Origin: a virus
DNA length: 32,947 bases
Virus record (IMG/VR): IMGVR_UViG_3300010885_023486
Coordinates: 1 to 32,947 of that record
Reading direction: 5' to 3' (one strand)
The translations under genes and the position numbers were made by a program. Shown in pieces: positions 3,701 through 29,346 of this stretch. The notes beneath the pieces were generated by a model. It saw only the letters and a program-made list of their open reading frames with translations, was not told where the DNA came from and did no database searches. Each line of letters opens with the position of its first letter. Positions within the stretch are counted from its first letter, which is position 1.

Positions 3701-4613
3701 GCATTTCCTCTGCGACTGTCCTTCCCGCGATTGTTTTGGTCGCTCCCCTGAGAGCCGCGCCCACATCCCCCCGGGCTTTATCAACGGGCAGTCCAGCCGT
3801 ATCAATATCTCGAACGGTTGCCCCGTAGGGGACTGGGGCCGACGATTCACGAAACGGACTTCTTCCTGAGGCAGCTTCCAACGCCGCAATTGCAAGACGT
3901 CTTCCCGCTGGCATGGACGGATCTAGGGCGCCCACTGCCTCACCAAGCCACCGCGCTGACCCAGTGAATACTGGAACAGTCGCGCCGAACCCAGCCCCCA
4001 AAGCCGTTGCCGCAGCAACCTGTCCCGGATCTACTCCACGACTTGTACCGACAGTCTCGCCAAGGGCCGTGGCCCCACCACTGACACCCCCCTCAGCAAG
4101 CCGGGCGAGAGTCCTCTTTCCGAGGGCTTTCCATCCAAGCCCCTCTGCATACTTTTCAGCATACCGACCCAAGGCAGGAATAGCCTTAGCTGCGGTAAGA
4201 GCGCCCGAGCCAAGGCTGCCACCAATACTCGACCCGATCCGCAAGGCAGTCGGTAAGCTTTCCATGCGTTCTTGACGAAGATCTCGCATGTCACTAAAGC
4301 TGTAATCCGGGCGAAGGGCCGCCTCAAGGGCATCAGTGGCAATGCCGGGAGCTCCCCAAAACCGAGAATCGACCGCATTCTCAATAGCGTTCCCAGTCAG
4401 GCTTTGTGTCTCATCAATCCTCGGACGCTGGCCACTATCCACAGCGTACCCCGAACGCACGGATCCCGGCTTTGGCGTTATACCCCCAACCTTCTTTGCT
4501 ACCGGAGACGTTGATGCTTCGGAGCTTACGGATGGGTCTGACTGTCCCGTACGCCCTCGCTCCTCGCGCTCACGGGCAAGACGGTCCCTCTTCTCCGCTA
4601 AGGTTTCCTGCAC
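717..4613 (-). CDS. Large internal virion (ejection) protein with C-terminal GH24-type lysozyme
   Basis: 1298 residues from a GTG start. The GTG overlaps the upstream TAG (TAGTG) and a GGGAGG ribosome-binding sequence lies just before it. The N-terminus is highly charged; about residues 310-470 are Ala/Glu/Arg-rich and likely coiled coil; the centre is Pro/Gly-rich. The last ~150 residues read as a T4-lysozyme-like domain: K-E-G-F with Glu1149, Y-D-D with Asp1158, and P-T-I-G-H-G with Thr1188, matching the Glu/Asp/Thr triad of GH24 muramidases. A ~24-residue insertion lies between Asp and Thr. Podoviruses often carry a wall-cutting domain on the largest ejected protein (T7 gp16 is the model, with a different enzyme), so a role in DNA entry is likely. 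An added role in lysis is possible, since holin-like genes follow directly. The lysozyme-coding end looks poorer in GC than the morphogenesis genes. Confidence 0.8.
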   Translation of the reverse strand: MQETLAEKRDRLAREREERGRTGQSDPSVSSEASTSPVAKKVGGITPKPGSVRSGYAVDSGQRPRIDETQSLTGNAIENAVDSRFWGAPGIATDALEAALRPDYSFSDMRDLRQERMESLPTALRIGSSIGGSLGSGALTAAKAIPALGRYAEKYAEGLGWKALGKRTLARLAEGGVSGGATALGETVGTSRGVDPGQVAAATALGAGFGATVPVFTGSARWLGEAVGALDPSMPAGRRLAIAALEAASGRSPFRESSAPVPYGATVRDIDTAGLPVDKARGDVGAALRGATKTIAGRTVAEEMLASDAAREAGAMRDAAEHATGVSRDQGSALSVAHNKIVEARELANKEARAAYELAKQREFGALRNWEVNDAAGNRARGQEIADQQARVAAAKNAYDVTEAERRLAHVKAGQDASEAWAAAKDAREGRSVDARKTYRETEALRRADHEAKKLAFDESERGMGDVLDVLGSVGDGRAVPNPHTTLANITTARTTFAEKAFPEAGRSLAGVPYKAEEMAARVAKSPVLQKAWRAAVVKRLEVTTADPSYPPLPTKTVNGEVIAVPDAVAWNDMQQFNQQASETIPGARPLDTSQLAISGALKHAGWLAEGQHPKYQEIDAAFKKSWDEERALVASSKPMSWDLNPQHPNQSLGARLEARATMSPEDVVKDQNIIRAKFGAMIKDSNLSPGELVKRLGESESKESAMVLLGWGPGARQEIIGKLGRPSNPGSYQGGPKPVKEPPVPSLVKQGKYIPSPEPEVEAPIPPWLSAPKPPEVAQEPVPGMVSGREQNFATGRKIFETPMDAGAKDPAFDIPNEISRRAALSAADRATAQQAGGAALQARLGEGGDVSPDANGKFTDQFLAQLGLASKSPQDAKIFEDASRSWSGARALRESLVGGEGPATIPNAASPWDKFVRQLTPSATWTASRMAHALAESGAHANTQGMAAEIVRIVLGEPGSTVSAIKQLRAIRGKDAAVAMKAAGILGRVSGGVIGTEGAEIPERSSGLAASATPSSLTPIPTARDTSPARPSVDIPRSRVPMGVEPGDPISLGAPGPRGLPEVPDGRGLSSLDGLATPRPPVTIEAPRPSVIDRVRDALKVSPLSAAEVGRPKTSAALPGGLVQYTRIGDVPKTFYDDAMDIIRSKEGFVPYVYDDKAKKGTERRLYMVNGRWRQKDGKKPEGTPTIGHGLTDPGIVNRGTITDKESEVLARAHMAKDVAQMVRKGSPISPILVSESYNMGVRRMENKNVFNLLRNGQYEEAADSLATVTTSKGIEDPGLKARRLDARRIMTAKSP

Positions 4614-12296: not shown

Positions 12297-13610
12297 TTAG
12301 ACAACGTGCGTGTAACGCGCCGTGTCGGTGTAGCCCGTGATCGAGCCATGCGAGTTCCGCTGCAGGCAGGCCAGATTGCCATACCAGCCATAGGAGGTCT
12401 CGAAGGCATCACGGCCCTGCGTCCAACGCCACGGGCCTGCGCCTTCAAACTCCACAAAGCCCCAGTCCTTCGCGTCCACCCACGACAGCGACGGAATGTG
12501 GATCAGGTAAATCGTACCAGCCGGCACATAGTAGTCCTGTACCAGCGGGATACCACAGACGCTGATAGCCTTGTAGCCACCCTTGATCGTCGTGGAGAAC
12601 TCTGCCGAATCAAACCGGCGCTGACCAACCATCGACTCGATCAGCTTCTTGCCAACACCAGGCGTGGTCATAAGCAGGAAGTCCTGCGGACGCAGCATTG
12701 CATCCTTACCAGAACGGCCAGAGATACGCTGGATCAGATCCCAGATGTCGCTTTCCGTCGGCTGGCTGGCGTCCGGCGTGTCCGTACCAGCAACCATACG
12801 AATCGCATCCCAGATACCATACGTCGCCTGCGAAATGCTATGCAGCGAGGCATAGCTGCCACCACGGTTCGTGATGTTGATCAGGCCATTCATGGCCGAG
12901 TTGAACGACGTGTCCGACGCCGTGGCCTTCACCAGCTTATCCGCCGCCGCCATACCCGTAATCGCCGTCGTCAACGTCAGCGTCGAGTTGTCACCAGACA
13001 CCGAGATTGCCGAGATGTTCGAGCGACCCAGCACGGCGTCCGACGAGGACGTATCCAGTACGGCGATGTAATCACCGACCGACAGGAGCAGCGAACCCTG
13101 ACCAGCCGACGCAACGCCGTACGGCGAGGTCACGACAATGACGGTCGTGGAGGTCACCGAGCCAACCAGTGCCACAATACCATCGGCCTTGTTATGGAGC
13201 GCCTGCTGCATCAGCAGGGTCGAGGCATCCTTGATTTCTTCCATCGTCTTCTTGGCGATGGTCTGGAACGCGGCGTCCTTCGACTGCGTACCAACAAATG
13301 CCAGGCCGTCAATCTGACGGGTGGTGTATGCACGAACGACACCGACATTGCCCTGCACTTCAGTCGCCGTCGTGTCAGGCGGGAAGTAGCCTGCCGAGGA
13401 GAACGTTGCACCGGACGGACGACCAACAACGACATCGAAAAACACATTGTTCCCGCCCCAACGCATGTTGCGCGGGCCACCGGCCTTACCCTTGTTCAGC
13501 TGGGCAAGCAGCGGCGTGACGAGGTTCTGCACCTTCTCCCGGAACTGCGAATACACATTCTTTAGCAGACCGGTAAGTTCGGTATCGGTAATAACTGTGG
13601 GTGCTGGCAT
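12297..13610 (-). CDS. Major capsid protein
   Basis: 437 residues, the usual size for an HK97-fold coat protein. The N-terminal region (about residues 5-45) is helical, then comes a G-G-N-N-V-F-F-D-V-V-V stretch of the type seen at the start of the E-loop. The centre has Gly/Ser/Thr-rich beta segments and the last third contains A-I-S-V-C-G-I-P-L-V and Y-L-I-H-I-P. It lies directly downstream of the scaffold and portal genes, the canonical order. About 13 bases separate a short AGGA-containing leader from the ATG. Codon choice appears strongly biased, as expected for the most abundant virion protein. The HK97 fold is inference; position and size make the coat assignment strong. Confidence 0.8.
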   Translation of the reverse strand: MPAPTVITDTELTGLLKNVYSQFREKVQNLVTPLLAQLNKGKAGGPRNMRWGGNNVFFDVVVGRPSGATFSSAGYFPPDTTATEVQGNVGVVRAYTTRQIDGLAFVGTQSKDAAFQTIAKKTMEEIKDASTLLMQQALHNKADGIVALVGSVTSTTVIVVTSPYGVASAGQGSLLLSVGDYIAVLDTSSSDAVLGRSNISAISVSGDNSTLTLTTAITGMAAADKLVKATASDTSFNSAMNGLINITNRGGSYASLHSISQATYGIWDAIRMVAGTDTPDASQPTESDIWDLIQRISGRSGKDAMLRPQDFLLMTTPGVGKKLIESMVGQRRFDSAEFSTTIKGGYKAISVCGIPLVQDYYVPAGTIYLIHIPSLSWVDAKDWGFVEFEGAGPWRWTQGRDAFETSYGWYGNLACLQRNSHGSITGYTDTARYTHVV

Positions 13611-14680: not shown

Positions 14681-16906
14681 TTACTGCGGCGTCACTGCTT
14701 CTAGCTGCCGTGCGGCCTGCTCAGCATCGGGGGTGCCAGCCAACGACTGAACCATCGTCGGCGCGACCCCAATGGGCGGGTTCGTACTGCCTAGAGGCAT
14801 TTGACTCGGTGAGAGCGCGGGAACACTTGCGGTGGCCCCCGCAGAACCTTGGCCTTCTCCGGCACCGCCAGTCGGCGCTCCGGGCATAGGCCCACCCTGT
14901 TTTTGTGCTGCTTGATTTGCCAACTGGATCCACCGCGCATTAGCGTTGGCGATCACTGTTGGGTCCAGATCATCCTGCAAGAGAATGTCCCGCTCGAGCA
15001 CATCCTGATGGATGGACTCATTGTCCTGCCACCGCATTTCGGGCACGGCCAACCCTTGACGGATGGCGTCCGTGACCCGCTTGGCCCGTGCTTCCTGGTC
15101 TTCGTCTGGGCTCGAGATATCCCGCGCCACAGCAAACTGCTGGCGGCGGCGGTACTCCTTGACGTCGATAATCCCTGCCTGCAGCCAGTTGTCCAACAGG
15201 TAGAGCCGGAAGGCCATCGGCATCGGCATCATGGTTGCCGCCTCAACCTTCACATTGAGTGCGCCGTCGAGGTCCTTCCCTGTCACAGCTCGGGCAAGGT
15301 CAGGACGACCGGCCCCTACTGCACCAAGCGCACGGGGCATGTCATATCCCCACGCCATCATCGCCAAGCAGACCTTAGCCCAGTCCGTATAGGCCTGAGC
15401 GAGTGCCTGAACCGGAGGAGCGAAGACCCGCTCCAGCTGCTCACGGCTTGCAATAATGGCTCGACCTGACTCACCGGTAATCTGGCCACGGCTCACCGAG
15501 TTGTAGCCAGAGGCATCCTCAAAAGCCTGCTTCTCCAGTGCAAGGGCTTCCTTGACGTCCGTCCCAACCGAGAATCCGCTGACCGGCTGGATAGAGTCGC
15601 TCATGGCACCCGCACCACGAACCTCAATCATCGAGGTGACGCCACCCAAGAACGTTTCGGTCGAGATGGTATTCGGACGGGTCAGGAATCGGCCACCGGC
15701 ATTGACCCGGATGTTCTCAATCCACTTGGACAACAGGGCGTTGATCCGCATCTGGTGATCAATCCACTGTTCCATCACCGGACGCGGGAAATAGCTCGGA
15801 TCGCTCGACCCATCCCGTACCGGGACCACGGGGATTGAGCCAAACAGCAACTCCGTCGGCCCAAAGACCGCCGTGCTGCCGACAATCACGATCTGCAGCC
15901 CACCGGGGAGGATATCAGGCTGTGGTGCGACGTAGAGCGTAAAGCGTTCGGTTGTTTCCTGGTCACGGAGCCGGTCCCCTTCACCAACCACCGTCTGCGA
16001 CAGCACCCACGCGCCCATTCCGGACTCACCAGTCGTTGCCGTCTGGTGTCCCTGGGCGAGTTCCTGATTTGAGGCCTGCAATCCCGTGATACCGTAGCGG
16101 TAGGCCGCCTCAGACGAAGGAATCACCTCTCGAATCAGCACCCACGATGGAGCCCGGGTGGCTGTTGCATCTGGCGACACCCGCACCTGCTCCACGCGGA
16201 GGGTCTGAATGTTGATATCACCCAGCGGAGCCTGTTCGCCAGCCTTATTCCCCAGGCGATCGTCCCACGGACCGCGATCTGCGTCCCAATAGGTGTGCCA
16301 GAAGGCCACGCCGTCCGTCTGCGCCCAGTAGGACGCCTCGCGGGACATGCGATCCATCTGCAGCTGGTCATATTGATACTCACACGCCAGCTGCTGGGCC
16401 TGTGCCTTCCGCTTATCCTCGGGATCCGAGGTCATCGGCTGGATAGCAAAGCCAGGTCGCTGGTCCATCATCACCTGCAAGCGCTGGTCGAGCGCCTTGT
16501 TGATCAAGTTGTACACAATCCGCGCCGATTCCCGGGGGCGGAGGGGCTCACGCCACGGGCCAAGCCCGTTCGCACTCACCCACTGCTGCCCACCACGGAA
16601 CAACCGGTTCCGTTCCACCAAGTGCAGGTGCATCGAGACTGCACCACGGCGACTGCCCCACAGACTCCGGACCCAATCTGCCCATGCACTGTCTTCAGGC
16701 TGGACATCTTCCCCAAACGTCAGGGGGCACTGGTCTCCCAGCAAGGCTTTGAGCAACGCGGTGCGCTGCTCCTCCTCTGACCGCCCATCATCCTGCGGTG
16801 GGTTGGGCATGGTCTGGTCATTCGCCGTCGGCTGTGGAGCCGCCCCACCAGCAAGGGCTTGGTCTACCATCTGCTGCATCGCCGCTTCGTCAAATGGTGC
16901 GGTCAC
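14681..16906 (-). CDS. Portal protein (podoviral type, 741 aa)
   Basis: 741 residues from a GTG start in a GTGA overlap with the upstream gene. The size fits large P22-type portals (about 725). Residues about 115-230 read as the portal core: R-I-V-Y-N-L-I-N-K, an M-M-D-Q-R-P-G-F stretch, and D-G-V-A-F-W-H-T-Y-W-D, a pattern common in this family. The C-terminal ~150 residues are Pro/Gly/Gln-rich. The portal forms the dodecameric DNA entry ring, binds the terminase and nucleates procapsid assembly. The following scaffold and coat genes support the call. Confidence 0.78.
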   Translation of the reverse strand: MTAPFDEAAMQQMVDQALAGGAAPQPTANDQTMPNPPQDDGRSEEEQRTALLKALLGDQCPLTFGEDVQPEDSAWADWVRSLWGSRRGAVSMHLHLVERNRLFRGGQQWVSANGLGPWREPLRPRESARIVYNLINKALDQRLQVMMDQRPGFAIQPMTSDPEDKRKAQAQQLACEYQYDQLQMDRMSREASYWAQTDGVAFWHTYWDADRGPWDDRLGNKAGEQAPLGDINIQTLRVEQVRVSPDATATRAPSWVLIREVIPSSEAAYRYGITGLQASNQELAQGHQTATTGESGMGAWVLSQTVVGEGDRLRDQETTERFTLYVAPQPDILPGGLQIVIVGSTAVFGPTELLFGSIPVVPVRDGSSDPSYFPRPVMEQWIDHQMRINALLSKWIENIRVNAGGRFLTRPNTISTETFLGGVTSMIEVRGAGAMSDSIQPVSGFSVGTDVKEALALEKQAFEDASGYNSVSRGQITGESGRAIIASREQLERVFAPPVQALAQAYTDWAKVCLAMMAWGYDMPRALGAVGAGRPDLARAVTGKDLDGALNVKVEAATMMPMPMAFRLYLLDNWLQAGIIDVKEYRRRQQFAVARDISSPDEDQEARAKRVTDAIRQGLAVPEMRWQDNESIHQDVLERDILLQDDLDPTVIANANARWIQLANQAAQKQGGPMPGAPTGGAGEGQGSAGATASVPALSPSQMPLGSTNPPIGVAPTMVQSLAGTPDAEQAARQLEAVTPQ

Positions 16907-21972: not shown

Positions 21973-23298
21973 TTACCACGAGACGGGCAGCTGCGCTTCA
22001 GGTGCCCCAAAAAAATGTAGCGGGTTCACTTGACTCGCGTCAGCCCCCGCAAAGACCAACGCAGTTGGGTCATCACCTACTGGCCCGTCCGTCAGTAACT
22101 CCACCGGCACCGCCCCTTGTACGCGGTCCCAGCCATACAGGGCCAAGGCCAGGGCCATCACGCCATCGTCATGCAAACTGGGCGGTGCTTCGTATCGCAC
22201 CCCCGTATTGGTAAAATGAAACTCAAAACTTTCCAGCTCGCCAATCAGCCAGCCGTCGGGGATGGTCAACTCCCCACCCTGAAACGCGGCGATCAGCCGC
22301 TGCATCAGCCGGAGCTTGGATGGCTGCGTAAAAATGTGGGGGGTTACCGTCACGCCTAACACCTGCAGGTCAGCCACAATCGCATCGCCCACGCCAGTCG
22401 CATCGGCTACCAGGGGGACTTCGCCCACCTGCATCCGGATTCGCTCTTTGGTTTCGGCCCACGGTAACTGGAAGCGGTCAAGCGAACAGACGCGGCGGTG
22501 GCTATCCAAGCCAACCAACACCGTGAAGTCCAGCGACCGCGCCAAGTCCACGCCATAGACCACGGGCTTCCGTCCACTCATTTGCCCAATCGCGGCACGG
22601 ACCTTATCCACCCCAAAGGGGTTCGCGCCATCATCCGCGGGAATCCCCTCAAACTCTTGAGCAAAGACCAGCGGCGGCAGCTCCTGCTTGGCCGCCTCAA
22701 TCTCACTGGCGGGGATAAATGGATTCTCTCCGGTCGCCGCACGGAAGCTCTGCCAGTCTGGGCTACTGCCGTCCATGCCGCGCTGGAACATCTGCACGAA
22801 CGCATGACGACGACCCTTCGGCGTTCCCATGATCAGGGCTCGGCCCCCCAAATCCACCAATGTCGGGCGAATGGCGGCCTGCCAGACCGCGGTCAAGTCC
22901 TTGGCAATCCCCGCCTCATCCAGCACAACCAAGGCGTACTTCCGGCCACGGGCTGGGTCCGGCGTATCCAGCGTCCAGACCTCAATCACCCCACCGGTCA
23001 GCAGCTCGAGCCGCTTGTCCTGCTCCGAGACTCGGGCCGTGATCGGTCCCAAGCGCTCGAGGATTTCCCGCCACGCTTCTAGTGCGAGCTTGTAGGACGG
23101 AGAGAACCACCCGACGGGCTGCCCGGCAATCGCGGCATCCAACGCCAGTCGCATCCCCAACGCGGTCTTCCCAAACCGCCGTCCACACATGACCACCCGA
23201 AACCGCGCCTCATGGTCCGCAATCGCGCGTTGACCCGGATGGAGCTTTGCCAACGTCACCGTGACCGTTTCCGGTCGCTGCTTTGTATGACCGCGCAT
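21973..23298 (-). CDS. terL: Terminase large subunit
   Basis: 441 residues with both motor and nuclease domains. ATPase: Walker A G-R-R-F-G-K-T at 39-45, Walker B L-V-V-L-D-E at 123-128 with the catalytic Glu128, and coupling motif G-T-P-K-G at 158-162. RNase H-like nuclease: Asp251 in Y-G-V-D-L-A, Asp299 in V-A-D-A-T-G, and Asp377/378 in H-D-D-G. All key acidic residues are present, so the enzyme should pump DNA into the procapsid and cut it to genome length, docked on the portal. The ATG follows a 12-mer, GGTTATATTAGG, also found before the small terminase gene. The short length fits the family's compact members. Confidence 0.93.
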   Translation of the reverse strand: MRGHTKQRPETVTVTLAKLHPGQRAIADHEARFRVVMCGRRFGKTALGMRLALDAAIAGQPVGWFSPSYKLALEAWREILERLGPITARVSEQDKRLELLTGGVIEVWTLDTPDPARGRKYALVVLDEAGIAKDLTAVWQAAIRPTLVDLGGRALIMGTPKGRRHAFVQMFQRGMDGSSPDWQSFRAATGENPFIPASEIEAAKQELPPLVFAQEFEGIPADDGANPFGVDKVRAAIGQMSGRKPVVYGVDLARSLDFTVLVGLDSHRRVCSLDRFQLPWAETKERIRMQVGEVPLVADATGVGDAIVADLQVLGVTVTPHIFTQPSKLRLMQRLIAAFQGGELTIPDGWLIGELESFEFHFTNTGVRYEAPPSLHDDGVMALALALYGWDRVQGAVPVELLTDGPVGDDPTALVFAGADASQVNPLHFFGAPEAQLPVSW

Positions 23299-23308
23299 CT
23301 GTGCCCCT

Positions 23309-23337
23309 AATATAACCTATCGGGCCGCAGAACTCAA
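23309..23337 (-). promoter_or_regulatory. Putative promoter before terL
   Basis: On the minus strand TTGAGT (23332-23337) and TATATT (23309-23314) are 17 bp apart, a sigma70-like arrangement. The -10 element sits in GGTTATATTAGG and ends ten bases before the terL ATG, so the transcript would have a very short leader. The same 12-mer precedes the small terminase gene. Confidence 0.45.
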
Positions 23338-23348
23338 GCCAGGGGCCT

Positions 23349-23744
23349 TTACAGGTACACGAGGATGACACTTGGAAAAGGGGCTCCTGCTTTTGCCTCT
23401 CCAAATCTGAGCCGTCCTTTGACAAAGCGGATTGCATCTGCGTCAAGGGCGTAGTCGTGCCACCATCGAGTATCGGTTCTTGCTGGCAAGAGGAACACGG
23501 CAAGCTGCGCTGTGCGAGCTTTTGCTAACCACGCCCCAATCCCCCTGCCGTATGGCGGGTTGCAAAACACCCGCTGGCCTGACCAGTCCAGTGTGAGGCC
23601 ATCCACAACAAAATCGCCGTCTTTCTCGGTCAGAGGGCACGGGTCAAGCGTAAAGCCAAACTCAGCATCTAGCGCAGCGTACAGGTCGGTCGGCGTAGCG
23701 TGACTTCCAGACTGAGCAGAGAACAAAGTACGGCTCAGTGTCAT
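23349..23744 (-). CDS. Phage DNA N6-adenine methyltransferase (Dam type)
   Basis: 131 residues. It has T-P-T-D-L-Y near the start, T-L-D-P-C-P at 32-37, C-N-P-P-Y at 61-65 (the catalytic motif of N6-adenine methyltransferases) and G-R-L-R-F at 110-114, in the order seen in the phage Dam family (PF05869). These enzymes transfer a methyl group from S-adenosylmethionine to adenine, often in GATC, and can protect phage DNA from restriction or mark it for packaging. It is slightly shorter than most members but keeps all main motifs. It lies between the two terminase genes and starts in an ATGA overlap with the small subunit gene, so it is made together with it. Target sequence unknown. Confidence 0.85.
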   Translation of the reverse strand: MTLSRTLFSAQSGSHATPTDLYAALDAEFGFTLDPCPLTEKDGDFVVDGLTLDWSGQRVFCNPPYGRGIGAWLAKARTAQLAVFLLPARTDTRWWHDYALDADAIRFVKGRLRFGEAKAGAPFPSVILVYL

Positions 23745-24232
23745 ACGTTGCCCTCTGGCTCGGCCTCTGCATGTTCCACGTGGAACACTCTAGACGGCAG
23801 GGTCGTCATTGGCGCAGCGAGGACGGCATGGGCCATCGCTTGGATGGCCGGGGCACGGTCCTCCTCCAGCACCTTCACCGAGATCGTCTGCGACCCTTGG
23901 TGCTCCACCACCTGCTTATCCCCGTAGTCCTGTGGGGCCGCTTTGCTCGACGCCCACTTCAGCGTATCCACCACCAGCCGGTCCACCATCACGCGGTCGT
24001 TGTCCGAGCTCCGCGCAATCTGGATGGCTTCCTCCGCTAACGCGTTCCCCATCAGCACCCGCGCCCTCCGATACCGACTGTACAGTTCCTCGTCCTCCGA
24101 GAGCCAGTGCCGTACCGTCCCCGCCGACCGCCGCAGGGTCCGACACGTGTCCGCCACCGTCTTCCCGTCCGCCAATCCCGCTAACACGGCCTCGATCACC
24201 GAGGCCCGTTCCGCCGCTGGTACTTTCGCCAT
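23741..24232 (-). CDS. terS: Terminase small subunit
   Basis: The frame is open back to 24385, but the ATG at 24232 is the likely start because GGTTATATTAGG, the 12-mer also placed before terL, lies directly before it. This gives 163 residues. Residues about 5-45 form a helix-turn-helix (T-V-A-D-T-C-R-T-L-R-R-S-A-G-T-V-R-H-W-L) of the kind that recognises the packaging site; a charged helical region for ring assembly follows (about 50-100). Position ahead of terL supports the call. The C-terminal codons for F-H-V-E-H (150-154) contain a perfect parS-like palindrome, so this part of the gene may be under DNA-level rather than protein-level selection. Confidence 0.75.
   Translation of the reverse strand: MAKVPAAERASVIEAVLAGLADGKTVADTCRTLRRSAGTVRHWLSEDEELYSRYRRARVLMGNALAEEAIQIARSSDNDRVMVDRLVVDTLKWASSKAAPQDYGDKQVVEHQGSQTISVKVLEEDRAPAIQAMAHAVLAAPMTTLPSRVFHVEHAEAEPEGNV
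23772..23787. promoter_or_regulatory. parS-like centromere site (16-bp perfect palindrome)
   Basis: The sequence TGTTCCACGTGGAACA is a perfect palindrome matching the bacterial chromosomal parS consensus (TGTTNCACGTGNAACA), where ParB binds and spreads. It lies inside the 3' end of terS. A specific 16-bp match is very unlikely by chance in 33 kb. No parA or parB is present in the window. Confidence 0.75.
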
Positions 24233-24238
24233 GTGCCT

Positions 24239-24268
24239 AATATAACCGTTTTCTTTTTTTTCTGCCAG
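24239..24268 (-). promoter_or_regulatory. Putative promoter before terS
   Basis: On the minus strand CTGGCA (24263-24268) and TATATT (24239-24244) are 18 bp apart. The -10 hexamer is within GGTTATATTAGG and ends only six bases before the terS ATG, so transcription would begin at or beside the start codon, a leaderless mRNA. An A-rich tract fills the spacer. Confidence 0.45.
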
Positions 24269-24544
24269 CCGCCTGCTCTTGCGCAAACGTAGCTTCCCCT
24301 TTCCCGCTGGCTCCCGACCGTGTGGGGGTGGTAGTGTGATGCGAGCGGGTCGCGGCGGGGTAGGTGGTAAGGGAGTGCGGGACATCCGAACGACAACTAC
24401 ACGTCACCGCGACGGCGAGGCAACGCGCAAACGGGCAGGGGCCTGCAACCGCCTGCGGTACGCGGTCGCTATCGCTCCCGCTTGGTTGCGTGACTCCGTG
24501 CTTGGCGAGTTACGTTCGCAGATGGCCCATCAGCTCCGTGTGTC

Positions 24545-24645: not shown

Positions 24646-24732
24646 TACTGCTGTTGCGGTGTGGGTTCTGGTTGCGTAACTGCGGTATGGCAGTGGTGGT
24701 CGTTTGGGTCAGGCGTGTCGTTATGACACAGG

Positions 24733-24769
24733 TGTCCTCTATCTAGGACAGTGTCCTCTTTCGGGGACA
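24733..24769. promoter_or_regulatory. Tandem 18-bp dyads (TGTCC...GGACA), operator candidates
   Basis: TGTCCTCTATCTAGGACA (24733-24750) and TGTCCTCTTTCGGGGACA (24752-24769) are separated by one base, so their centres are 19 bp apart, about two helix turns. Arms are six and five bases. A shorter GACAC/GTGTC dyad (24725-24736) overlaps the left end. The layout is that of a cooperatively bound repressor or activator. Confidence 0.55.
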
Positions 24770-24791: not shown

Positions 24792-24918
24792 CTCAGTAGT
24801 GAGAGGTACAGCGCGGTACATCTCGCCACCGAGAAGCACAGCGCGAAGCATCTCGCCACCGAGAGGCGCGGCACCGAGAGACACAGCGCCGAGCATCTCA
24901 GTAGCGAACAGCGCAGCC
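24792..24918. repeat. 30-bp tandem repeat array with internal dyads
   Basis: Units lie at 24792-24821, 24822-24851, 24852-24896 (lengthened by ~15 bp) and a partial 24897-24918. Units share a CTC(A/G)..A(C/G)(C/T)GAGA start and CAGCGC middle and end in CAT. The dyad TCTCGCCACCGAGA is perfect at 24821-24834 and 24851-24864, and degenerate elsewhere. It resembles iterons or multi-site operators. Confidence 0.65.
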
Positions 24919-25253: not shown

Positions 25254-25622
25254 ATGACGCCCGACGAGATGCAGAACCAGACCACCCGTAACGCCGCTTC
25301 AATCGCTACGGCAACGCACGACACAGTGACGGTGGCGTACACCGCCGAACGACTACTGCAAGAGCTTCGCGCCGAGTGCATGGGGAGTGCGATTCTGACC
25401 GCCACGCCATACGGCACCTATCTACAGGCACCGTTCGACAAAACGGCCACAACGATGTTGAAAGCAATCGGCGCTCAATGGAATCAAACGGAAAAAGTGT
25501 GGGTCATCAAATCTGAACGCCACCTGATGGCACTGCGAATCGCCACGTTTTGCTACAGCGACGTAGCCGAATACGAAGAGTTTGACGGCTACACGCAGGC
25601 CATCTACCCGGACGCGATGTAA
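25254..25622 (+). CDS. DUF5710-like small protein, first early gene (122 aa)
   Basis: 122 residues; GAGGT lies six bases before the ATG. Residues about 54-80 read Y-L-Q-A-P-F-D-K, then L-K-A-I-G-A-Q-W-N-Q-T-E-K-V-W-V-I. This resembles the DUF5710/HARP-like motif (aPF.eK..aK.lGArW....K.WyV) found in phage and plasmid proteins that handle DNA or are fused to primases and nucleases. The rest has no recognised features. As the first gene after the control region it is likely expressed immediately on infection, so a host-takeover role is possible. The motif is seen; the function is inference. Confidence 0.65.
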   Translation: MTPDEMQNQTTRNAASIATATHDTVTVAYTAERLLQELRAECMGSAILTATPYGTYLQAPFDKTATTMLKAIGAQWNQTEKVWVIKSERHLMALRIATFCYSDVAEYEEFDGYTQAIYPDAM

Positions 25623-26864: not shown

Positions 26865-27227
26865 GTGGCACGTATCACCCGCATGAATCTCGATGATGCC
26901 TTGATGCAAATCAACATGCTCAATGGCACCGCCAACACCACGCAGTACCGACGACACCGCGACAACCTCATCCCCAACGAAGGAGCGTACATGCTGACCA
27001 ATGCATTTGGGGGGCTGGCCCTGGTACAGATGATGGAACAGGGCACCATCCGAGATGTGTTCCCAGACCTGCCCAAGACCCGCGAACTGTACGATCAGAT
27101 GGTGGCGTATGCCAAAGGCATGAAGGCCCAGCAGCTACGTATCGCCCTCGCACAGACCTGGGTCAACCCACTCCGAGATGCCGAAGATGTCCCTCAACCA
27201 CTAACCGAAGAGGTTGTCCATGCCTGA
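26865..27227 (+). CDS. Unknown helical protein before the amidoligase gene (120 aa)
   Basis: 120 residues from a GTG; the leader CAAGGAGTTCCC is identical to that of the gene before. Mostly predicted helix (M-N-L-D-D-A-L-M-Q-I, then L-T-N-A-F-G-G-L-A-L-V-Q-M-M, and a helical C-terminus). The last eight bases overlap the amidoligase start, so the two products are made together. No family recognised; it could be the substrate or a partner of the amidoligase. Confidence 0.62.
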   Translation: MARITRMNLDDALMQINMLNGTANTTQYRRHRDNLIPNEGAYMLTNAFGGLALVQMMEQGTIRDVFPDLPKTRELYDQMVAYAKGMKAQQLRIALAQTWVNPLRDAEDVPQPLTEEVVHA

Positions 27228-28389
27228 GATACTCGATCACCCATTACCAGGGGCTGAGACAGAACTGATCGACCCGTGCGGCAGCTGCTTCCAAGAGACA
27301 GAGAACGTCTACACACTCGAAGGCCGAAGGCCATGCGTCGACTGCGTACATCAATGCGCATACTGCCCGTCTTTCGTCGTAGGATATCTGCCCGACAGCT
27401 GGAGAGAAACAGGCCCACGCAACGTACCAACGTGCAGTCACTGCAGCGAGGACTGGAACTGTTGCGAAGACTGCGGGATCAGTATCCACATCTGTAATAC
27501 GTTTTACAGTGACGATGAGCCATACTGCGACGACTGCGCACCATCGGATGACGACGAAGAGGACCCACCCGACTCGGTGATCCGTCGGTACCACGAATCT
27601 CAAGGAATCTTTACAAGCCTGACCTCACCCTGGACACGTGCCCACCGTCGATACATTGGCGTCGAGCTTGAAGTTGAGCAAGTCAACGGTAACCGTGAAA
27701 CATCTGCCTGCCGGATAATCGACGCAGTAAATAGCCAAGCGAAGCTCATCCTCACCGACCAGGCACTATACCCGGGACACCCGCACAGCCCACTCCTCGT
27801 GAGCATGGAGAACGACGGCAGCCTCAACAATGGGTTCGAGATCATCACGGCACCACTCGGACTCGATGACCAGCGCAACCTATGGGCAACGATACTTGCC
27901 TCATCCAATGTCGCGGGACTACGATCACACAACACCACAACCTGCGGGTTGCATGTGCATATCACCCGCGACGGGCTCAGCAAACTCCAGATCGCCAAGG
28001 TCGTAGCCTTCGTCAACAGCGCAACCAACTACGCCTTCATGAAGCGATTGTCCAGACGGTATGGCACACACTACTGCAAGGCCAAGAGCAAACCGCTTTG
28101 CACCGGAGCGAGTAACCTTGACTCCGATCGATATGAGATGGTCAACCTATGCAACAGGCGTACCATCGAGTTTCGGATTTTCCGGGGAACACTCAAGCTC
28201 CAGAGTCTCTTGGCTTGCATCGAGTTTGCCGCCGCGCTCGTGTCCTACTGTGCACCCGCATCAGGGTACGCTATGGATATCAGCGCCGTCACGTTCCGGC
28301 GGTTCATCAACACCCCGCGCATGAGAGCAGACACGAAACATCTACGCGGCTATCTGGCCAGCGTAATCCCCGCAACAGAAACGGAGTAA
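27220..28389 (+). CDS. Amidoligase with N-terminal Cys-rich (zinc-ribbon) region
   Basis: 389 residues from the ATG at 27220; AGAGG lies six bases before it. A TTG two codons earlier is less likely. Residues 20-106 contain Cys pairs (C20/C23, C39/C42, C46/C49, C72/C75, C82/C85, C103/C106), probably several zinc ribbons. The catalytic part resembles the putative amidoligase family (PF12224; glutamine synthetase/GCS-like fold): G-V-E-L-E-V-E at 147-153, E-N-D-G-S-L at 197-202, E-I-I-T-A-P-L at 207-213, C-G-L-H-V-H-I at 242-248, and T-I-E-F-R-I-F-R-G-T-L at 315-325. Such enzymes use ATP to join a carboxylate to an amine. A glutaminase gene follows three bases later, so ammonia may be the amine donor, or the pair may build a peptide or amide tag. 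Substrate unknown. Confidence 0.82.
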   Translation: MPEILDHPLPGAETELIDPCGSCFQETENVYTLEGRRPCVDCVHQCAYCPSFVVGYLPDSWRETGPRNVPTCSHCSEDWNCCEDCGISIHICNTFYSDDEPYCDDCAPSDDDEEDPPDSVIRRYHESQGIFTSLTSPWTRAHRRYIGVELEVEQVNGNRETSACRIIDAVNSQAKLILTDQALYPGHPHSPLLVSMENDGSLNNGFEIITAPLGLDDQRNLWATILASSNVAGLRSHNTTTCGLHVHITRDGLSKLQIAKVVAFVNSATNYAFMKRLSRRYGTHYCKAKSKPLCTGASNLDSDRYEMVNLCNRRTIEFRIFRGTLKLQSLLACIEFAAALVSYCAPASGYAMDISAVTFRRFINTPRMRADTKHLRGYLASVIPATETE

Positions 28390-28392
28390 CCC

Positions 28393-29346
28393 ATGTGCCT
28401 CTTGATTCAGCAGCCAGCTGGCTGCACCTTCTCTAAAGTTGAGCTCAAGGATTTTATCCGACGCAACCCTGATGGATACGGATATGCCAGGGCCGAACGG
28501 GGACGCATCATCTGGGGCAAGATGGTAGCCGACGCCGACACCATCATCGCAGACTACCACCAACACATGGCCGGCAAGTCTGGGATGATTCACTTTCGGA
28601 TGGCCACCCACGGAGAGACCGACGAAGCCAACGCCCATCCATTCGAGGTGACCCCGGAGATTGTCCTGGCACACAACGGCATCCTCAGCAGTGGCAATCC
28701 GTTCAGCGAGGACGAGAGCGACACGGCACACTTTGTCAAGTACATTGTGCGACCCATTGCCCTCAGCTCACCCAACCTACTGTTCAGCCCAGAATGGGGA
28801 GAGATGATCGGCAACCTGATCGGAAAAAGCAACAAGCTAACCATCCAACATGCAGACGGACGATGCGCCATCATCAACAGCAGCTGTGGTGTTCTGCATA
28901 AAGGTGCATGGATGAGCAATACTTATGCATGGTCGAACGCAGCCAATGCCCCCCTGAACTACACCCGAAGGGCCGATGCCTACGACCCACGCGATACGGA
29001 CTGGATGTACGAAGACCATCGCTCCGCCAGAGCTGGCCTGCCCACCGTATACGAAAGCCAACTCGAGGAGTGCGCCAAGTACTTCGAGAGTGGAGGCCGG
29101 AACGGAATCGCGCAATGGGTGAAGGCGAATCCACAAGAAGCCGCCGATACACTCGTTGCGTTATACGACATCGACGAGGACTACGCGGCGGAACTCGTAA
29201 CCGGAAGCGAGAACATGGTAGTCGACCACCTCGAAGAATCGCTACGGAACGAAGGATTGCTGGTCGATCTCAACCAGGAGGAGGATGCATACGTCGATGA
29301 AGACCAACTCACGCTCGGCAACTCCGAAACATTGTACACCCACTGA
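28393..29346 (+). CDS. Class II glutamine amidotransferase (GlmS/PurF type)
   Basis: 317 residues; ACGGAG lies six bases before the ATG and the amidoligase stop is three bases upstream. Cys2 follows the start Met, as needed for an N-terminal nucleophile after Met removal. Glutaminase motifs are in order: D-G-Y-G at 27-30, H-F-R-M-A-T-H-G at 67-74, N-A-H-P-F at 80-84, L-A-H-N-G-I at 92-97, and S-D-T at 109-111. The family releases ammonia from glutamine and passes it to a partner. The last ~130 residues are acidic and unlike known transferase domains, so the protein probably acts as a stand-alone glutaminase for the amidoligase. All catalytic residues seem intact. Confidence 0.87.
   Translation: MCLLIQQPAGCTFSKVELKDFIRRNPDGYGYARAERGRIIWGKMVADADTIIADYHQHMAGKSGMIHFRMATHGETDEANAHPFEVTPEIVLAHNGILSSGNPFSEDESDTAHFVKYIVRPIALSSPNLLFSPEWGEMIGNLIGKSNKLTIQHADGRCAIINSSCGVLHKGAWMSNTYAWSNAANAPLNYTRRADAYDPRDTDWMYEDHRSARAGLPTVYESQLEECAKYFESGGRNGIAQWVKANPQEAADTLVALYDIDEDYAAELVTGSENMVVDHLEESLRNEGLLVDLNQEEDAYVDEDQLTLGNSETLYTH

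Follow-up and report, generated by a model that had tools for sequence, protein, structure and literature searches.

The stretch of DNA analyzed here (hereafter the window) comes from a phage and is a linear, possibly incomplete contig of 32,947 bases. Its late genes are transcribed leftward, and rightward genes start at 25254. The minus-strand open reading frame at 23741-24385 has its likely start at the ATG at 24232, which gives a terminase small subunit (TerS) of 163 aa (23741-24232, minus strand), assigned from its matches to phrog_1482 and Sf6_terminase (PF20901) and from an alignment of 33 TerS. The gene of the large subunit, terL (21973-23298, minus strand; phrog_2), is separated from terS by a short Dam-type adenine methyltransferase gene (23349-23744, minus strand; PF05869, phrog_111). 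In the four related contigs described below, this gene is missing from that place. The leftward late block also comprises the portal (14681-16906), the major head protein (12297-13610), and a 1298-aa protein with a C-terminal lysozyme domain. Promoter-like sequences, recognized by consensus match only, precede terS (24239-24268, minus strand) and terL (23309-23337, minus strand). The same 11-mer, GGTTATATTAG, stands on the minus strand directly before terS (24237-24247) and terL (23307-23317), with a TATATT promoter-like box in each case. The gap between the divergent gene blocks holds two 19-nt repeats whose halves, TGTCC/GGACA, are inverted (24732-24769) and three 30-nt repeats (24801-24905), all of which are possible operators or part of an origin. 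Further to the right, neighboring genes at 27214-29346 have amidoligase-like and glutamine amidotransferase-like PHROG matches.

To place the phage, we compared a profile of its TerL with genome contigs of 84,980 species, using a scan for shared peptide patterns. There was one close match (71% identical), to a contig of 5 kb that had been binned as Verrucomicrobia and could itself be the phage; the remaining seven matches were at most 43% identical. No integrase was recognized among the window proteins tested, which are a subset of its ORFs. Since no integrase was recognized and the close TerL relative was found in a single genome record, these results weakly suggest that the phage is virulent.

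The 3' end of terS holds a perfect 16-bp palindrome, TGTTCCACGTGGAACA, at 23772-23787, exactly where the first-pass annotation had placed one. Its codons in terS are gtg ttc cac gtg gaa cat (V149-F-H-V-E-H154), and they start 15 residues from the C-terminus. The palindrome has no mismatch to the 16-bp chromosomal parS palindrome TGTTNCACGTGNAACA, and all 16 letters are identical to those of Pseudomonas aeruginosa parS2 and parS3 as given in PMC4368675. According to the sections of that paper on these sites, they are the ones preferred by P. aeruginosa ParB, and parAB together with a single perfect parS2 stabilizes something "otherwise unstable", presumably a plasmid. A search of the whole window with up to three mismatches to either of two parS variants returned this site alone, for an expectation from dinucleotide shuffles of the window of 0.07 and 0.12 matches, respectively. 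The context is nevertheless different from that of a chromosomal parS, which is found near oriC on a replicon encoding ParA and ParB: the window's site is in a gene of a phage record where no ParB_N domain was found, and it is not beside a chromosomal oriC. The site may work like parS, yet it lies outside any chromosomal par locus.

The conservation of the palindrome was assessed among the TerS relatives found in IMG/VR. There are four such contigs, 78-88% identical; three come from one sample, and two of these three share the same terS codons. In all four, the 16 bp are unchanged and start 89-94 bp upstream of terL; in the window, the Dam gene intervenes. When four distinct sequences are compared, the invariant stretch of greatest length in terS measures 21 nt, spans the palindrome, and lies in a tail that changes fast. 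Of the 118 codons for the same residue elsewhere in the gene, 53 are identical in the four sequences, so that six in a row would have a probability of about 0.008. One might object that the site is a coincidence, a parS-like palindrome happening to code for the motif FHVEH in the TerS tail, since the motif is kept in the four relatives and the conservation test within the clade is modest on its own. However, FHVEH is missing from 30 of the 33 aligned TerS, the tail that contains V149-H154 (residues 139-163) is predicted to be disordered (pLDDT below 50), the codons of the palindrome are unchanged while their neighbors drift, and phages in general show a strong enrichment of parS (see below). 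We regard coincidence as quite improbable. Because the encoded residues fall in a predicted disordered tail, it is the DNA rather than the protein that looks constrained at the palindrome. The first-pass annotation had named an observation that would speak against a DNA site, i.e., relatives that keep the FHVEH residues and lose the palindrome, and we found none among the four related contigs. These comparisons provide moderate support for the palindrome being kept by selection on DNA within a small clade.

Beyond this clade the picture changes. A site with at most two mismatches was missing at 76 of the 80 TerL-related loci (59 of the 76 having a terS match in view) and present only in the four of the window's clade. 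Similarly, 33 of 37 related whole records were devoid of a parS-like site and four had one. Because the wider relatives are without it, the site would be either a gain at the level of the clade or the remnant of losses elsewhere.

To put the site in the broader context of viruses, we made exact scans of IMG/VR for two parS variants. Both TGTTCCACGTGGAACA and TGTTTCACGTGAAACA were found in at least 120 stretches. For comparison, the palindrome read backwards gave no match, and a second control palindrome, alike in composition and sharing the CACGTG core, gave 10. When the matches listed were clustered by the similarity of their flanks, there were 92 clusters in 120 loci for TGTTCCACGTGGAACA, 96 in 119 for TGTTTCACGTGAAACA, and 6 in 10 for the control. 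In the cultured phages of INPHARED, 30-base BLAST probes for the two variants hit 140 and 364 records, and those for the controls 1 and 3. The probe counts include some sites with 15 of 16 letters whose match was aided by the flanks (e.g., in Mycobacterium phage Prince), with the same latitude given to the controls. The counts behind this enrichment are lower bounds and include relatives. Two small phage genomes of about 6 kb, bajarodino virus 3 (PQ006097) and bajarodino virus 6 (PQ006135), are unusually dense in parS, the TGTTTCACGTGAAACA probe matching at 12 places in each, probably counted on both strands, as the places reported by BLAST seem to be in general. With a crude gene caller, 106 of 272 parS sites were intergenic, compared with 7.9% of positions drawn at random from the same sequences, a five-fold excess in a set that includes related sequences. 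The letter-for-letter identity to parS2 and parS3, the enrichment over control palindromes, and the moderate conservation at synonymous sites within the clade are in line with the match to the conserved bacterial parS proposed from the first reading, and the sequence evidence provides good support for regarding 23772-23787 as a real parS.

Among the cultured phages, the commonest carrier names were Pseudomonas, Mycobacterium, Microviridae, Klebsiella, and Stenotrophomonas for one variant, and Listeria, Microbacterium, Arthrobacter, and Gordonia for the other, some of the "Listeria phage" records being short unannotated contigs that are perhaps not phage. Many carriers are phages, as a phrog_2 TerL was found in 20 of 50 and 19 of 43 long carrier records for the two variants. 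Exact parS sites occur in Chedec 11, a phi29-like phage (Picovirinae), and the likewise phi29-like phage B103 matches a parS probe.

The absence of a parB gene from the window, noted at the first reading, was borne out by a search for ParB_N (PF02195) in the window and 19 related records, all linear and possibly partial, which identified none (0/20). In the carrier records tested, the domain was found in 4 of 104: none of 50 in one set, 4 of 43 for the other variant (three of them scoring above the family threshold), and 0 of 11 full records of cultured phages, six of which show an exact site in the fetched stretch and five a site with 15 of 16 letters. Hence, the data suggest that many unrelated viruses with parS, mostly without ParB, may borrow the segregation machinery of their hosts. 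The phage could instead encode a ParB in a missing part of its genome and use the site as phage-plasmids do. P1, N15, and Mic1 are comparable to the window in having a centromere site on phage DNA, and they encode ParA and ParB (PMC7156551, in its account of these elements). The window's record is linear and possibly incomplete, a ParB_N match occurs in 4 of 43 carriers of the other variant, and Mic1 exemplifies a phage with its own ParABS. Yet, ParB_N is lacking in all 20 records of the window's phage family, several of which are near 40 kb, and the parS-like palindrome described for Mic1 is a different sequence, whereas the window's site is the chromosomal consensus. We consider a ParB encoded by the phage itself very improbable.

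If host ParB were used, one might have expected parS only in phages whose hosts have it. Escherichia and Salmonella phages, with at least 637 and at least 201 records in the collection, are outside the ten commonest carrier names and absent from 60 + 60 evenly spaced rows of the matches. Vibrio and Synechococcus phages, numerous in the collection, are outside the ten commonest names too, which does not fit such a rule. Klebsiella is not known to have chromosomal ParABS. Ten Klebsiella records match a parS probe, and the jumbo phage RaK2 has an exact parS (positions 207-222 of the fetched locus L356) in a gene that the RefSeq copy labels baseplate wedge subunit. Because Klebsiella phages carry parS as well, this simple host rule is not clean, and we did not retain it.

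The explanation that we favor, and hold to be probable on balance, is that the palindrome is a working orphan parS that loads host ParB on phage DNA. The chromosomal ParB of the host, a CTP clamp, would load at the palindrome when the phage DNA enters the cell or during its replication, and would then spread across the terS/terL region. The phage chromosome would thereby become a client of the host's ParA/SMC machinery. Phage DNA could in this way be placed with the host origin region and, if lysis is delayed, pass on to daughter cells, in the manner proposed for phi29 and Spo0J. The binding, the spreading, and the benefit are what we infer from the sequence comparisons. As to what the loading would do, positioning and inheritance are our first choice, with the repression of packaging promoters as the main rival.

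There are precedents for parts of this scheme. Spore entrapment of the phi29 genome by the host Spo0J, a ParB, is attributed to Meijer 2005 in the part of PMC9437464 that deals with it. The likeness is that phi29 is thought to use host ParB for the capture of its genome, and that the window's phage has a parS on its DNA with no ParB found in a possibly incomplete genome. The difference is that phi29 depends on sporulation and Spo0A, whereas the window's phage has another type of terminase and nothing in it indicates spore entry. The literature searched, which included few subscription journals and no preprints, yielded no orphan chromosomal parS in phages beyond this citation. A second parallel is the mobile element SGI1, which carries mimics of the parS of IncC plasmids and is described in PMC10954446 as gaining stability from the ParABS of the plasmid. 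As in the window, parS-like sites on a mobile element would use the ParABS of another replicon; in contrast, SGI1 is an integrative element relying on a plasmid ParB, and here it is a phage with a putative chromosomal ParB.

The site lies in terS, and it had been suggested at the first reading that it might tie packaging to ParB loading. We analyzed the position of parS relative to terminase genes. A general link was discarded: in 38 parS-bearing records with a phrog_2 TerL (39 were found, and L087, where the match is broken by seven stops, was removed), four sites were within 1.5 kb of the terminase for 4.26 expected, i.e., there is no association. In loci with the 5' end of a phrog_38-type terL in view, 22 of 47 parS-bearing ones have the site at -200 to +150, nearly all in one lineage (20 of 37 loci, with 2 of 6 in a second lineage at 45% identity). 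A random test of near-terL placement per lineage was not significant for this type. We also fetched 80 phrog_38-type relatives by protein, with an alignment of 10 parS carriers, and nine of the query contigs came back among them. When these nine were excluded, 3 of 26 close relatives had a perfect site near the terL start and the other 23 had none. This corresponds to three sites in 7.8 kb near terL versus five in 161 kb elsewhere (0.24 expected, Poisson 0.002, uncorrected for relatedness), two of the three carrier contigs having also been picked up by the parS scans. With the query contigs, the figures become 12 of 35 close relatives and 12 sites in 10.5 kb versus five in 209 kb (Poisson 1e-16), which are inflated because the nine contigs were parS carriers. 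More distant relatives had a site near terL in 1 of 40 cases. Since the non-carriers of this type have at least four mismatches near the terL start, no half-decayed sites were seen. One carrier, L387, has a mixed parS variant that is beyond the reach of either scan. In an alignment of the 12 near-terL carriers, the palindrome stands out as a conserved block with paired C/G to T/A changes, which is no evidence by itself because these sequences were mostly chosen for holding the site.

Other loci place parS at the same boundary. It is found at the terS/terL junction in L301, and five copies separate terS from terL both in L243, where terS has a PHROG match and terL was identified as well, and in L270, where terL has the PHROG match and the terS-like frame was judged by eye. 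Four further loci (L049, L071, L108, and L109) have two parS 24 bp apart just before terL, of two different variants in L049. The terS/terL boundary thus recurs as a place for parS in more than one terminase type, with most of the evidence coming from one lineage. Hence, the outcome for the proposed tie to packaging is mixed, as this recurrence in other terminase lineages favors it and the lack of association in the 38 phrog_2 records does not. Of the first-pass reading as a whole, the parS itself is well supported, the packaging part is in this mixed state, and the recruitment of host ParB is the part that we infer.

The recurrent position is pertinent to the main rival, in which ParB loads for gene control. 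Clamps would repress the late packaging promoters near terS and terL at low copy number, and replication would titrate ParB away, making a copy-number timer. The palindrome is flanked on each side, at a distance of about 0.45 kb, by a promoter-like box (consensus match only), another phage clade has parS just before terL, and in L243 and L270 the five copies are ahead of terL. P. aeruginosa ParB is reported in PMC5521831 to repress promoters beside the intergenic parS3 and parS4, and phages are reported, in the part of PMC9437464 on this subject, to rely on the host factors Spo0A and LexA, and possibly on CtrA, for the timing or postponement of lysis. However, the study in PMC5521831 found no promoter effect at the intragenic parS1 and parS2, and the window's site is intragenic; moreover, terL is distant from the site in most carriers whose TerL belongs to phrog_2. 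We find such a timer unlikely.

Finally, the sites could act as decoys, many phage copies titrating ParB and disturbing the segregation of the host chromosome or the cell cycle. Carriers with multiple sites exist, extra copies of parS can lower fitness in Caulobacter (as described in PMC5815017), and the parS mimics of SGI1 help to displace a plasmid, according to the corresponding part of PMC10954446. Yet, among the matches listed for the window's variant, 107 of 120 stretches (which are not whole genomes) have one site, and the decoy would be weak bait because of these single sites; we hold it to be the least probable of the explanations. In its broadest form, the favored reading of a site that loads host ParB would make orphan host-type parS a general phage device beyond sporulating hosts, with the terS/terL boundary as a recurrent place where loaded ParB serves as a copy-number gauge or an anchor for the packaging end, tying late expression or packaging to the segregation state of the host. 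We put this forward as a doubtful extension. If phages commonly load host ParB, the chromosome segregation machinery would be a phage host factor too, and this would bear on where phage DNA lies in the cell, on its inheritance by daughter cells without lysogeny, and on the timing of late genes. In a further carrier, Pseudomonas phage M5.1 (L362, positions 4000-4015), a 15-of-16 parS directly follows a gene annotated as a DNA sulfur modification protein, and DndB is described as ParB-like in the relevant part of PMC12704722.
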